A DNA stretch of 64,000 nt from positions 1-64,000 of the forward strand of contig JAHHIL010000009.1 in the NCBI GenBank assembly GCA_019358975.1, read 5' to 3'. Below, one piece after another: positions 21,540 to 41,528 of this stretch. Positions within the stretch are counted from its first letter, which is position 1, and each line of letters begins with the position of its first letter. The translations under genes and the position numbers were made by a program. The notes beneath the pieces are model-generated. The model worked only from the letters and a program-made list of their open reading frames with translations, had not been told where the DNA came from and did no database searches. Source of the stretch: Trichocoleus desertorum ATA4-8-CV12 (GTDB lineage: Bacteria > Cyanobacteriota > Cyanobacteriia > FACHB-46).

Positions 21540-21699
21540 ATTTGGGATTCAAACAAGAAAAACCCCAGAAGCTAAATGGCTTCCAGGGCTAAATCAGGGT
21601 GCATCTACCATTCCTTAATCCCACGGTGGTATTGCTGATCCGGATAGATTGAGTTCTGGGGCGATCGCTTTATCAAGTCTTTACGGTTATGCTCTAGAA

Positions 21700-36778: not shown

Positions 36779-37840
36779 CTAGTTTTTTGTCTCAGGCATC
36801 ATGCATTTGTCGCTATCGCAACCCGCTGGGCCTTCAACGGTAGCTTCTCCAGAGTCGTAGCGGCTTAAGGCCGTATAGAAGTTATCAGTTCTACGTCGTG
36901 CCTGTACCCCTTGCTGCAACTGTTCGTAAGTTTCTTGATCGATCTTTTCGAAGGGTAAACGGGGGAAGGGTGCATCAAACCGAGCCAAGAGAGCCGCACT
37001 AATGTAGCCTTCTTGATTCGCGATCGCCTGATAAATCCGTTGGGCCAAGGGCTCCACTTCATCTTCTCGCAGCTCCACCGTGGCACTGGTGTTATGAGCG
37101 GTATAGTGCTTCTGCACCTGCATGTAGAAGTCAAACTGCGCTTCTGCGGAGAACTTCTCGATCGCGATTTGATCCGCTCCTGGCAAGTTGGCCCAAGGCA
37201 CCTCGACTGGGATTTCGACCAACCACTCTGTTACCCGTGGGTCAAAAGGATCGTTGAGTAGGTTGCCATTTTCGTCTTTATCGGATTGCGAGGGCACGAC
37301 ACTATAGCCGTACTCAATGCAAGCTAGGGCCACGGGGTCATTCTTACGGAACGTGATCCGACGAATGTAACGTTGGGCTTTAGGTGGGTGCCAACCGGGA
37401 GATGCCCCTGTCAGGAGTGACTTCGTGCCGGAAGGCTGGACAGTAGTGCAGCGATTGGGACGCTTGATGCCGTGGCGATCGCAGTATTCCCACACCACCC
37501 GATGCACAATTTCTTTCCAACGCGACAGATAGGCTTGCTCCTTCTGCTTGAACTCTAAGCCAGCCACTGTATCGGGCCGACCAGCTTCCCACCAGTGCAA
37601 CCAATCCACGCCAAAGGCTCTGACGAAGAAGTCAAACAGCCCTGTGAAAGAAACCCCAACAATCGGGTCAACTTCCCGCGACCATTGATAGCGTTCTTCC
37701 ACAAACTGATGGTTCAACAGCGCCGCAACAGAAAGTGCTCCAGCAGTGAAAGCCTCTTCTTGTTCCTGCGGATTGTGAGGATCTAGTTGATTAAGATGTA
37801 CCTCCGCTAAATTGCAGTGAAAATCTGAGCCGATAATTTC
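36779..37840 (-). CDS. nrdJ: NrdJ, C-terminal part, exon after the group I intron
   Basis: The 353 codons that complete the B12-dependent class II ribonucleotide reductase, which makes deoxyribonucleotides. The exon starts at the Glu of the catalytic NPCGE motif (EIIGSDFHCNLAEVHLNQ) and continues through GVSFTGLFDFF and VQPSGTKSLLTG. It ends with the redox tail Cys pair CDSDKCMMP. The frame stays open a few codons into the intron, which gives a false start upstream (MEIIG). Joined to 39017-39091 by splicing it makes a 378-residue polypeptide. The active-site sequence appears intact. Confidence 0.9.
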   Translation of the reverse strand, partial: EIIGSDFHCNLAEVHLNQLDPHNPQEQEEAFTAGALSVAALLNHQFVEERYQWSREVDPIVGVSFTGLFDFFVRAFGVDWLHWWEAGRPDTVAGLEFKQKEQAYLSRWKEIVHRVVWEYCDRHGIKRPNRCTTVQPSGTKSLLTGASPGWHPPKAQRYIRRITFRKNDPVALACIEYGYSVVPSQSDKDENGNLLNDPFDPRVTEWLVEIPVEVPWANLPGADQIAIEKFSAEAQFDFYMQVQKHYTAHNTSATVELREDEVEPLAQRIYQAIANQEGYISAALLARFDAPFPRLPFEKIDQETYEQLQQGVQARRRTDNFYTALSRYDSGEATVEGPAGCDSDKCMMPETKN

Positions 37841-39016
37841 CAAATTTTTTGTTATCCTAGAGGCTTTTTATCCCCTAGTTCTACTACTTCTTGATTCGTA
37901 GTAGTTCCGCGTACATTTTCTACATATGCTCTGAGATGAAATAGTAATTCTTTTCGGCTACAGGGATAGCCTACTACCATCTGACAAATAGTACGAATAT
38001 CGTGAATACCGTACTTTTGAGCGATCGCACTATACAAAGGCTGAAACAGCAATTTTAGTTTGTTTAGCTTGACCGAGAAAAGTTCATCTGCATGGATTTT
38101 GGCAAACGCCAGCACTGTTTGCTTGACTTCTACATCAGTAGTAGCAGTTTTACCATGTTGAGCACTAACAGAACAGCGATAGGAGCAAAATTTTTTATTT
38201 GCTCGCTTAGCCATTCCAGGCATCACCACGAAGGTAGTTTCACAAAAAAGACAAGTTAGAGAAACTCTCTCAACTAAAGGCCCAATTTTGCGACCTTGAC
38301 GTAATTTGTGGTGATTCTTTCGTTTTTCGCTATTGATGAACTTGTCTCTAAAAACAGGGTCTTGAAATCTCGCTTTCGCTTTAGCGCTGATTTTAGCTTT
38401 GGTAGCAGCGGATTGAGAAATACCATACATAGGGTTTCTAGAACCGAAGCTATTCATGCCCCGCACTTTAGCCTGAGATTTCCATTCCTGCTTTAAATGC
38501 TCAAATACAAAGGGTAGAGGCTTGATTAGCTGCCGCAGATCCTTTTCTTGGAGAATAGTAACTTTTGCGTTGTACTCAGACTGAAACTGCTGAACTTTTG
38601 GCAAATCAGAAGCAAAGTTGAACGTTCCTTTGATTTCAACATACTCCCCAGTTTCAAGTAAGAAATCTGGTTTATATCTCACTCCATTGGAGAGAGTGTA
38701 TGTCTGATTTTCGTAAGTCCAGCTAATGTTCATATAGTCTAAGTATCTGGCATAGATATATTCCAAGCTGGATCTCAAACAGTAACCTTTGTAGAAACCG
38801 GATTAGCCATAAAAGGTGCTTACCATATGTAGCCTCGCACTCTTGGAGAGATTATATTCTAGAGCTTTATTGGTGTAATTTTTTACTACTAAAACTCTAG
38901 GTTCACTCTCTACGCTGTACGGTGGCAAAGGCTTTTTGATTCCTTTACTTACCTCGGAGTTGGCCTCTCAGCGTTCTCCGATTTTGCGGGGTTTTTAACG
39001 TGAGGCAAAATTATCT
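37841..39016 (-). mobile_element. Predicted group I intron in nrdJ
   Basis: A 1176-base insertion. Removing it restores the codons TGT GGT GAA ATT (Cys-Gly-Glu-Ile) in frame. The last exon base is T and the last intron base is G, as group I splicing requires. A P1 helix can be drawn: exon CGTGTGGT (39024-39017) pairs with intron GCCTCACG (39006-38999) at seven of eight positions, with the U-G pair exactly at the splice site and a ten-base loop. The first 238 intron bases hold further complementary pairs (for example CGGAG/CTCCG at 38980/38955). The rest is mostly an endonuclease gene. The full core fold has not been computed. Confidence 0.85.
37852..38778 (-). CDS. Intron-encoded homing endonuclease (PD-(D/E)XK, NUMOD3)
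   Basis: A 308-residue endonuclease. Residues 1-55 (RSSLEYIYARYLDYMNISW, then YKPDFLLETGEYVEIKG) form a PD-(D/E)XK nuclease core with Asp38, Glu48 and Lys50. A NUMOD3 DNA-binding motif follows (GSRNPMYGISQSAATKAKIS, 112-131). A zinc-finger-like part has CLFC (176-179) and CSYRC (198-202). The start is a TTG at 38778, in the GYCLRSSLEY context; no ATG is available. The stop codon lies 11 bases before the intron end. It would spread the intron by cutting intron-less nrdJ. The frame is intact, so it may be active. Confidence 0.85.
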   Translation of the reverse strand: MRSSLEYIYARYLDYMNISWTYENQTYTLSNGVRYKPDFLLETGEYVEIKGTFNFASDLPKVQQFQSEYNAKVTILQEKDLRQLIKPLPFVFEHLKQEWKSQAKVRGMNSFGSRNPMYGISQSAATKAKISAKAKARFQDPVFRDKFINSEKRKNHHKLRQGRKIGPLVERVSLTCLFCETTFVVMPGMAKRANKKFCSYRCSVSAQHGKTATTDVEVKQTVLAFAKIHADELFSVKLNKLKLLFQPLYSAIAQKYGIHDIRTICQMVVGYPCSRKELLFHLRAYVENVRGTTTNQEVVELGDKKPLG

Positions 39017-39091
39017 ACCACACGGGTTGAGCCCGTAACAGGACATCCTGTGTTCTAGCTCAAGTTCGATCGCATCCATATTGATTGACAT
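39017..39091 (-). CDS. nrdJ: NrdJ, C-terminal polypeptide, short first exon
   Basis: Twenty-five codons from an ATG at 39091 to the intron boundary: MSINMDAIELELEHRM, then SCYGLNPCG. The second half is unmistakable NrdJ sequence holding the thiyl-radical Cys of NPCGE. AGGAG lies seven bases before the ATG. The frame differs from the upstream nrdJ frame, which stops at 39114. In that upstream stretch this frame is open for about eight more codons, so both frames overlap by 27 bases. Either the enzyme is made as two chains, or there is a +1 shift, or the sequence has an error. Confidence 0.75.
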
Positions 39092-39113
39092 GAAATATCT
39101 CCTATTGAAACTG

Positions 39114-41528
39114 TTATTTGTCTGCGCTCTTGCTCTCAATTAAGAGCGTTTTCAAGTAAGACTTGGCGAATTCTTTTGATTCCTCATAGAGCTTCAAAAA
39201 CTTTTCTCGCTTCTCTGGAGTATTGAGCAAGTCACAGTTGGCACGAGCGATCGCTTCCGGTGCATATTGAATTGCGCCTTCTCCAGAGTAGAACTGCTTG
39301 CGAACCGCCTCAACACACTCTTGCTCAGAGGGTTGGCGGTGAAACACTCTCGTGTGGTTTGCCATCCGCAAAGCATCCCGTTCGGGGTCAATTCGCCAAT
39401 TGCCTTCAGCATCTTGCTGCCACAAGTTATCTTTAGCCACAGCAAAAGCTTGATCTTCACTAGAGCCTTGACGCATCCCGGCGCTGTTGTGAGTTAAGTA
39501 GCCATCACAGTAGAAACAATGGGCTTCTTCTACTTCAATGTCATAGGTTTGAACATGGTCGTAGCTGCCAATTCCCTTAACAGTGACAGGAATATCGAGC
39601 GAAACGTCAGACTCAACCATGAAACGCTCATAGTTGGAATCGACGGTGCGAGTTCCCTGAAAACCCATCGATCGCATTTCGCTGTAGGTATAGGCTTCTC
39701 GCATCAAGGCACCAGGTACAGTAAAGCCATACATTTTCAAGCCTTGCCGCAGTTCACCCTTGGCAGAGTGCGGAGCGATTAAAGCGTTGTAGCGTTGCTT
39801 TAGAGCTGGAATGGTCAGATTGTATTTTGCCTGCCAACCTTGATTTTGGGGCTGTGTGATTGTGATTCTGCCAGCAATCCCTAGGCTGGAGAGAACAGCA
39901 CTTACTTGTCTAGCGAACGAACGATAAACGGTAGTGACGAGGTGGGGTGGACGATTGTTAACAGCTCCATCACTATCGACCAAACCAGCCAAGTAAGCGG
40001 CCCGAATATCAACGGAGCCTTGAAGAATGAAGCTGGGAATTTCTAATGCCGTATTAGGACGCTTGATGTGTTGATAGAAGTATTCAGCTAACCGAATCGA
40101 GGAGCAAACAAATTTGACAGTGTTTTCACCTTTAACTGAACCTAACTCGGCAGTTAGACCAAAGCGAGCTAAGGCAGCTTGCAACTTGGCCTGGATTTGT
40201 GACACTAGTTGAGTGTCTAAACCATTGGTTGCCCATTCAACTCGACCGTAGGGCTTGCCATGCTTGTTACGCCCTAGGGCTACATAGCCATCACCGTGAG
40301 TGAAGCCAATCAGCCAAGCCACTTCAGGAGTCAGTGCAGGAATGGTTAGAGCTTTAGCAGTTCTGCTCTGGCTTGGTCTAATTGCAGTGAAATCTGGAGG
40401 TAAATGCGTAACTGTACCAGGCAGCACTTGGTTATTGTGCATAAGGCGATCGCCCTCTGCCAAAGCTGCTACATGCTTCCAAGTAATGTCTCCGCTAGCA
40501 GTAGCGAGAACAGCTTGACGATGATTGAGGGTTGCCCGTGGATAGGTTGCGTTGGTTTCAATCTCATAAACATCCTGGAATCCTTGGTCGAATTTATTTA
40601 CGACTTTACGGAAACCAAGGGGGGTTTGGACTAAATCGCCAATCTGGACATCTTTGATTGGCACCAAACCTTGAGAAGTATGAACCAGCGCATCTTCTGG
40701 GAGGCAGCGTCTAATATTACCCGCCACAATCGTCACAGCAGCAGCATCAATGAGGAGGCAGCATTCTACGGAGTTTAACTGGCGGCCCACAGCGCGATTC
40801 AGGATGGTAGCGCAGCGATCGTAGAGTTCGGGCAACTTGATTGGGTTGGCAACACCACCAAAACCTTTTAGCGTTTCACCCGCCGGACGGACATCGCTGA
40901 GATTCACAACTACTTGAACTTCACCAGAAAAGCGATCGCTGCTGGAGAGTTCGAGTAAAGACTGATAGGACTTGACCCAACCCTGGCGGCTGTCACCGAC
41001 ATTGATCTGAACTTGGTTGCCTTCAATCTGGACATCTGTGGTGCCGCGACGCTGATCCGCAGGGGTAGTGCCAATTTCACCTGAAACGGTGACATTCAAG
41101 CGGTTACGAATGGCAGGGAGGCGATCGATGTATTTGGGTTCTAAGATCGCCCCAGTTCCGCATCCTTGCATGGCCAGGTCCATCATCAAGCCAAAGGCTC
41201 GCCAGTCGATGACGTTAGTGCTAGTGCAGTTGTAAGCGCCGGAAAAGTTTTCTGATTTTTCGATCCAGTCGGTGCCCCCAATCCATAACCAACGACCGGA
41301 TGGCAAGCTCTTAATCTGGTACTGCATCCGCCGCAGCAAATCTACTTCCGCATCGGTGAGCTTACCCAGTTTGGCGATGCCTTGAATGGTGCGATCGCAG
41401 ACTTGCTCCCAGGTCTCACGCCGACCGTCGGTTCTACGGCTATAGGTCCTAAAGAAAACTGGATTAGCCGTGGGTGCTGTTTCCGGAAATTGACTAGTTG
41501 GGCGTACCCGTTCTAGATCTCGAACCAT
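39114..41528 (-). CDS. nrdJ: NrdJ, N-terminal part, with embedded intein
   Basis: An 804-residue precursor. Residues 1-274 and 682-804 are class II ribonucleotide reductase: SLPSGRWLWIGGT, the redox Cys at 101 (GAYNCTSTN), then AGNIRR and SAGMRQGSSEDQAFA. Residues 275-681 are an intein. The extein sequence ends with YAPEAIARANCDLL, EKFLKLYEESKEFAKSYLKT, and an unusual tail LLIESKSADK before TAA, far short of the normal length. The missing half is in the next frame downstream. B12 dependence fits the cobM gene at 21.8 kb. An imperfect half of an NrdR-type box (CCACTATATCT) lies upstream near 41560, a weak match. Confidence 0.92.
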   Translation of the reverse strand: MVRDLERVRPTSQFPETAPTANPVFFRTYSRRTDGRRETWEQVCDRTIQGIAKLGKLTDAEVDLLRRMQYQIKSLPSGRWLWIGGTDWIEKSENFSGAYNCTSTNVIDWRAFGLMMDLAMQGCGTGAILEPKYIDRLPAIRNRLNVTVSGEIGTTPADQRRGTTDVQIEGNQVQINVGDSRQGWVKSYQSLLELSSSDRFSGEVQVVVNLSDVRPAGETLKGFGGVANPIKLPELYDRCATILNRAVGRQLNSVECCLLIDAAAVTIVAGNIRRCLPEDALVHTSQGLVPIKDVQIGDLVQTPLGFRKVVNKFDQGFQDVYEIETNATYPRATLNHRQAVLATASGDITWKHVAALAEGDRLMHNNQVLPGTVTHLPPDFTAIRPSQSRTAKALTIPALTPEVAWLIGFTHGDGYVALGRNKHGKPYGRVEWATNGLDTQLVSQIQAKLQAALARFGLTAELGSVKGENTVKFVCSSIRLAEYFYQHIKRPNTALEIPSFILQGSVDIRAAYLAGLVDSDGAVNNRPPHLVTTVYRSFARQVSAVLSSLGIAGRITITQPQNQGWQAKYNLTIPALKQRYNALIAPHSAKGELRQGLKMYGFTVPGALMREAYTYSEMRSMGFQGTRTVDSNYERFMVESDVSLDIPVTVKGIGSYDHVQTYDIEVEEAHCFYCDGYLTHNSAGMRQGSSEDQAFAVAKDNLWQQDAEGNWRIDPERDALRMANHTRVFHRQPSEQECVEAVRKQFYSGEGAIQYAPEAIARANCDLLNTPEKREKFLKLYEESKEFAKSYLKTLLIESKSADK
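39486..40706 (-). mobile_element. Intein with LAGLIDADG endonuclease in NrdJ
   Basis: A 407-residue protein insertion between NIRR and SAGMRQ. It starts with Cys1 (CLPEDALVHTSQGLVPIKDV, block A) and carries RATLNHRQAVLAT (block B, His). Two dodecapeptide motifs follow (LIGFTHGDG at 406-414 and LAGLVDSDG at 513-521). It closes with YDIEVEEAHCFYCDGY (block F) and LTHN followed by Ser+1 (block G). All splicing residues (Cys1, block B His, penultimate His, terminal Asn, Ser+1) are present, so it should splice. The site is a known one for inteins in ribonucleotide reductases. Confidence 0.92.

Follow-up and report, generated by a model that had tools for sequence, protein, structure and literature searches.

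A cyanobacterial nrdJ gene divided into two reading frames within the catalytic barrel, next to a group I intron

The window, a stretch of 64,000 nucleotides from the cyanobacterium Trichocoleus desertorum ATA4-8-CV12 (contig JAHHIL010000009.1), contains nrdJ, the gene for a class II ribonucleotide reductase (RNR), on the minus strand from 41528 to 36779; all positions are given in window coordinates. The gene is divided into two open frames, here called the N-half and the C-half, and has the following parts, in the order in which they are read:

39114 to 41528, minus strand: N-half gene, starting with ATG at 41528; precursor of 804 amino acids, 397 without the intein; Cys119 equivalent at residue 101, split-type tail EKREKFLKLYEESKEFAKSYLKTLLIESKSADK at the end
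39486 to 40706, minus strand: LAGLIDADG intein of 407 amino acids, N-half residues 275-681, borders NIRR/C...HN/SAGM
39092 to 39113, minus strand: intercistronic gap of 22 nucleotides, including the ribosome site AGGAG at 39099-39103
39017 to 39091, minus strand: C-half exon 1, ATG start and 25 codons, MSINMDAIELELEHRMSCYGLNPCG; radical Cys408 equivalent in NPCG
37841 to 39016, minus strand: group I intron of 1176 nucleotides, inserted after GGT (39017)
37852 to 38778, minus strand: open reading frame (ORF) of the intron, a nuclease of T7-endonuclease-I type with a NUMOD3 region
36779 to 37840, minus strand: C-half exon 2, 353 codons and a stop (TAG at 36779); Glu410 and Cys419 equivalents, C-terminal cysteine pair

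Profile searches assign the gene to the RTPR-type subfamily of class II RNRs (TIGR02505). The C-half scores 405 bits and by itself exceeds the curated cut-off of 340, the N-half scores 329 bits with a match that is broken up by the intein, and jointly the two matches span model positions 19-723. The RTPR cysteine set is complete when the chains are taken together, with YNCTSTN in the N-half and NPCGE, FHCN and the C-terminal CDSDKC in the C-half. What departs from RTPR is its monomeric single chain, in place of which there are two frames with their own starts and, in the genus g17 described below, two unlinked genes.

The N-half frame closes with TAA at 39116-39114 after the tail ...LLIESKSADK. 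The C-half opens with ATG at 39091-39089, with seven nucleotides between AGGAG (39103-39099) and the ATG, in the +1 frame relative to the N-half, and its predicted length after removal of the intron is 378 amino acids. A first-pass annotation of the window had given the same stop and tail and the same start, ribosome site and conserved NrdJ sequence, and these hold, as do its intein in one half and intron in the other, both now located. It had also described the two frames as overlapping in an open stretch; both are indeed open upstream of the TAA, but the chains themselves do not overlap, the ATG lying 22 nucleotides past the stop. The annotation further noted an unusually long stretch between the conserved NrdJ blocks and proposed a comparison with a relative; two congeners, G001 and G002, were compared.

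In G001 nrdJ is intact, a single chain of 761 amino acids without intein and without intron, and its stretch between the conserved blocks is shorter than that of the window. In G002 the same break and an intron are present, and the intein is missing, as it is from G001. The gap of G002 differs from that of the window by one-base insertions or deletions (indels); its N-frame ends in ...LLIESKNTTSNGFN with a TAG stop that adjoins the ribosome site, and both ribosome site and ATG are retained. The C-half head of 25 amino acids is identical in the window and G002, and all four nucleotide differences within it are synonymous. From a gap that bears indels while ribosome site, ATG and head are kept follows that the break is not due to chance; it is real, and no sequencing error.

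The same arrangement recurs among cyanobacteria. When 390 genomes of the class were queried with the N-half tail, split nrdJ was found in 19, belonging to six GTDB families (f1, f13, f16, f17, f24, f25). N-half tail and C-half head were accordingly found again in 17 genomes beyond the window and G002, and among 80 named relatives that were examined too the break is shared by Microcoleus sp. FACHB-1515 (L017) and Phormidesmis priestleyi ULC027bin1 (L056), both within the 19. The halves are adjacent in 13 of the 19 split genomes, each having a stop codon, a ribosome site rich in purines and a new ATG. In these 13 the C-half ATG lies from -20 to 47 nucleotides relative to the end of the N-half stop, all three frame relations (+0, +1 and +2) occur, and the gap sequences are not conserved between species, the ribosome site excepted. 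In the other six genomes, which all belong to genus g17, an unrelated gene comes after the N-half gene and the C-half lies elsewhere, either on other contigs or, in the single-contig genome G036, far off, with the halves at 1.11 Mb and 1.83 Mb. The C-half of this genus starts MTQAPERP...ELDHRMSRYGLNPC... and carries inteins in five of the six. When the halves are two unlinked genes, as in g17, frameshift, readthrough and bypassing are excluded.

Two side observations belong here. The g17 C-halves (L130-L135) have up to two inteins, one of which interrupts NPCGE after its Cys and before its Gly, very close to the group I intron position of other lineages. In the metagenome-assembled genome G313 the C-half (L144) is broken again in exon 2, with a frame of 263 amino acids, by draft error or decay.

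RNR is an essential enzyme. In the window's own genome, which is 99.98% complete, profile searches with PF02867, PF13597 and PF00268 gave no match, and TIGR02505 matches this nrdJ gene only. In the 18 other split genomes, two of them less than 90% complete, PF02867 and PF13597 are silent and TIGR02505 is confined to the two halves; PF02867 is blind to this RNR subfamily, and its role is limited to excluding other RNRs. Since RNR is essential and no other RNR is detected, the two chains must presumably function together, and we infer that they assemble into a working enzyme.

Where the cut falls in the protein can be read from an alignment with 1L1L, in which NPCGE of the C-half falls on the finger loop. 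In a structure model of the intact G001 chain (best match in the PDB 1l1l, E 7e-24; mean predicted local distance difference test score, pLDDT, 65, and 83-90 over residues 361-400), the break site is the loop 387-391, between helices 379-386 and 392-398. By this alignment the break is just ahead of the finger loop, and the predicted active-site cysteines end up on separate chains. The model of the split N-half, poor across the barrel region, has with modest confidence a longer helix 378-397 in place of the short one, and it is our guess that this tail helix might help to hold the chains together. The loop before the finger loop tolerates indels, being about 36 residues shorter in Nodosilinea and relatives. 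A short loop (GEAKRRAGGDDRYGLNPCG) is present in L016, L022, L026, L027, L029, L037, L039, L048 and others.

The history of the split differs from that of the protein in which it is found. The protein body follows the lineages of the hosts. In its tree, made without the tail region, the split rows are scattered, with 14 state changes of which at least 10 are forced by starred branches, and a single clade of the 15 split rows in a set of 33 is rejected (p-AU 2e-7). A tree of the 34 residues that precede the stop unites 16 split rows in a single clade, apart from 56 intact rows (support 97/93), and the single split clade has support 94/84 once the head and the first part of exon 2 are included with the tail. 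The tails thus have a single origin, while the bodies are scattered.

To see how this can be, consider close relatives of which one has a split and the other an intact gene. Along the gene their DNA is mostly 80-100% identical, with a collapse of identity between about residue 351 and about residue 418. In at least six pairs (window/G001, G169/L014, G249/L036, G184/G178, G136/G025 and G245/G157) the collapse flanks the intron site on both sides, so that donor-type sequence stands to either side of the insertion site; homing is known to co-convert flanking sequence as a by-product (PMC3984707; PMC2988022). A second, smaller drop, seen in some pairs near residue 275, coincides with the intein site. 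Moreover, G249 has the long split tail and is placed within Nodosilinea, a group in which the others keep the short native loop. From the sister divergence centred on the intron site and the long tail in G249 follows that a short tract has replaced the native stretch. The window's nrdJ is nearer to that of the intact G001 than to that of the split G002 across most of the gene, and in this genus either G001 may have reverted or the tract may have entered the window's genome and G002.

Viral NrdJ genes with a readable junction have no split there. Their loops group, weakly, with the split tail rather than with host loops, and a phage origin of the split tail is a possible, weakly supported reading of these sequences. 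The NrdJ of L160 (G148) is very divergent, with two inteins in one frame of 1536 amino acids, a long branch and a loop like the split tails, and may come from a phage.

The intron has the borders GGT/AG ... G/GAA. Its 5' exon ends in a U paired with G (U12.G28 in the consensus structure), it has the terminal G, and it shares with ORF-less homologues a paired core of 56 consensus pairs, 25 of which are changed on both sides; these are the structural features of a group I intron, and a search of Rfam gave no match to it. The intron is present in 13 of 13 adjacent splits and also in 11 scored intact genes, most intact genes being without it. In the splits the exon frame meets a stop at intron bases 4-6 (in a variant, one or two bases later), and unspliced RNA would yield a predicted peptide of about 26 amino acids. 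A review presents evidence that translation into group I introns impairs their folding and that a stop close to the 5' splice site may be of help (PMC3984707). The split puts an extra stop upstream of the intron, which suggests a reason why split and intron go together.

The intron ORF encodes a relative of T7 endonuclease I (1m0d, E 1.4e-4) and has in addition the NUMOD3 region. A longer nuclease frame in the window (38803-38826, minus strand) reads ATG GTA AGC ACC TTT TAT GGC and then TAA at 38803-38805; the homologues L139, L146 and L043 lack this TAA and stay open (M.STFYGYSGFYKG). The nuclease copy in the window may lack activity, or its translation may restart at 38778. Its ORF (37852-38778) shares 69-74% identity with those of other families (L085, L139 and L146, and also L043 from Mastigocoleus, an intact-gene host). 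Since the ORF is closer to other families than to the congener, introns have been swapped between lineages at the same site. In Trichocoleus sp. FACHB-40 (L049, 5752-6000) a very different, intron-like insert of 249 nucleotides stands at the same codon boundary.

The reading that we favour, with a probability of about 0.87, is that nrdJ encodes a genuine two-chain class II RNR, and that its split has a single origin and has spread as a short tract, most likely by co-conversion during intron homing. The N-half (397 amino acids after loss of the intein) and the C-half (378 after loss of the intron) would be translated separately from adjacent genes, the latter from its own ribosome site 22 nucleotides beyond the N-half stop. 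The chains would associate non-covalently and rebuild one catalytic barrel, to which the N-half would bring one redox cysteine and the C-half the radical cysteine, the catalytic glutamate and the partner cysteine. The split would have arisen once, in a tract from about residue 351 to slightly beyond the intron site, and this tract would have been exchanged for the native stretch in distant cyanobacterial lineages. The vehicle was most likely homing of the group I intron, which has a nuclease as its ORF, with the split tract as the co-converted flank. That the enzyme is truly two-chained, as the first-pass annotation proposed, is strongly supported by the 19 genomes, by the unlinked halves of one genus and by the failure to detect a second RNR. 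Several facts weigh on the other side. Both chains, the splicing and the activity are predictions from DNA sequence; the tail trees are based on 34-70 columns; the quality of the structure models is mediocre (pLDDT 60-65). Furthermore, the introns linked to splits do not form one clade, the tie between intron and split is not strict, with g17 splits that lack the intron and the 11 intact genes that have it, and the ORF of the window's intron stands well apart from the congener's, with 74% identity to G169 of another family and 49% to G002.

How do other explanations account for the same facts? Two neighbouring open frames offset by one base are what a one-base sequencing or assembly error in an ordinary single-chain nrdJ would produce, but the probability of this is negligible when G002 and 17 further genomes share the break with varied gaps and frames, a kept ribosome site and a new ATG, and when the halves are unlinked in g17. 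A single chain could also be made by programmed frameshifting or by ribosomal bypassing over the gap, which is short, and the window's reading does continue open at +1. The frame is, however, +0, +1 or +2 and the gap from -20 to 47 nucleotides depending on the species, the gap sequence is unconserved except for the ribosome site, and the unlinked genes of g17 are impossible to bypass, which makes a recoded single chain very unlikely. Error and frameshift, which the first-pass annotation had both kept as alternatives, are in this way refuted by the comparative data. That an intein, an intron and a break meet in one gene, and that the intron ORF contains a stop, would suit a decaying pseudogene with two remnants. 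Such decay is scarcely credible in view of the catalytic residues kept in both halves, a head that differs from that of G002 by synonymous changes only, and the lack of a second RNR in 19 genomes, from which follows that the gene is indispensable unless an RNR was missed.

A different matter is whether the split arose once. Repeated, independent splits in a tolerant loop, with tails made similar by convergence, would agree with the tolerance of this loop to indels (Nodosilinea and relatives) and with the scatter of splits over the body tree. We consider this improbable, since the tails form one clade against 56 intact rows, a long foreign tail occurs in lineages where the native loop, as seen in relatives, is short, and the sister divergence is centred on the intron site and extends to both sides of it. 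Two other routes to a joined product were considered and rejected. Protein trans-splicing by a split intein finds no counterpart in the tails and heads, which when inspected by eye, with no profile, are without intein-like ends, and the inteins of the g17 C-halves are complete; intron trans-splicing is ruled out by an intron that lies entirely within the C-half gene.

A more specific proposal can be made, tentatively and at somewhat less than even odds: the split is itself part of the mobile unit. The intron would home into the finger-loop codons, and its flank would stop the upstream ORF and restart translation just before the intron, so that most ribosomes are kept out and the intron can fold. 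Each new host's enzyme would thereby become obligately two-chained, and in one lineage the halves would have moved apart, with no intron remaining and the two-gene state fixed.

That a cellular RNR is cut through its barrel in genomes without another detectable RNR implies that two chains can make up the core of a radical enzyme. The evidence for sideways spread of a gene fission, as a short tract beside an intron, offers a concrete route by which mobile elements could reshape essential genes. In practice, nrdJ in split genomes reads as fragments and could be misannotated as a pseudogene. Elsewhere in the window lies the nitrogen stress-induced RNA 1, NsiR1 (21554-21610, minus strand; Rfam RF02399, 55.8 bits).

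The closest cellular parallel, suggested by the first-pass annotation, is NrdJa/NrdJb of Pseudomonas aeruginosa, where NrdJa has the whole catalytic machinery and NrdJb the C-terminal redox and zinc part (PMC4520616). There too a cellular class II RNR is made as two chains from adjacent genes, both needed in vivo (PMC4520616), but the likeness is wrong in detail: the Pseudomonas break comes after a complete barrel (PMC4520616), whereas the break here precedes NPCGE and runs through the catalytic barrel, about half of which is in the C-half. Furthermore, the Pseudomonas enzyme belongs to another RNR subfamily in a genome with further RNRs, while here the enzyme is the sole detectable RNR and has an intron alongside. 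In Aeromonas phage Aeh1 the endonuclease gene mobE splits the RNR large subunit NrdA into NrdA-a and NrdA-b, which form an active enzyme (PMC2988022, PMC3267527). Common to both systems are a mobile element and an RNR split in a functionally critical region; the Aeh1 enzyme is, however, a class I phage RNR with the endonuclease gene between the halves, whereas in the cellular class II gene the gap is 22 nucleotides (-20 to 47 elsewhere) and the nuclease is encoded within the second gene's intron. The 43A/43B genes of phages 44RR and 25 are similar in having a short intercistronic split, with or without an endonuclease gene, and cooperating chains (PMC2988022), and differ in encoding a phage DNA polymerase rather than a cellular RNR. 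Split RNR genes are known in phages (PMC3653736), and group I introns are known in cyanobacterial RNR genes (PMC12702839). One of these, in the B12-dependent RNR gene of Nostoc punctiforme (Meng et al. 2007, as reported in PMC12702839 and PMC3984707), resembles the present case in intron type and host gene, and differs in that those reports do not describe a split of the protein. Proteobacterial NrdJab was in 2015 called the only split RNR outside viruses (PMC4520616) and is the sole split mentioned in a 2022 survey of RNR extensions (PMC9669993); a literature search, with subscription papers and RNRdb outside its scope, found no split cyanobacterial NrdJ. Split RNRs and cyanobacterial RNR introns as such are thus already known, and what appears to be new here is a cellular RNR that is cut within its barrel.
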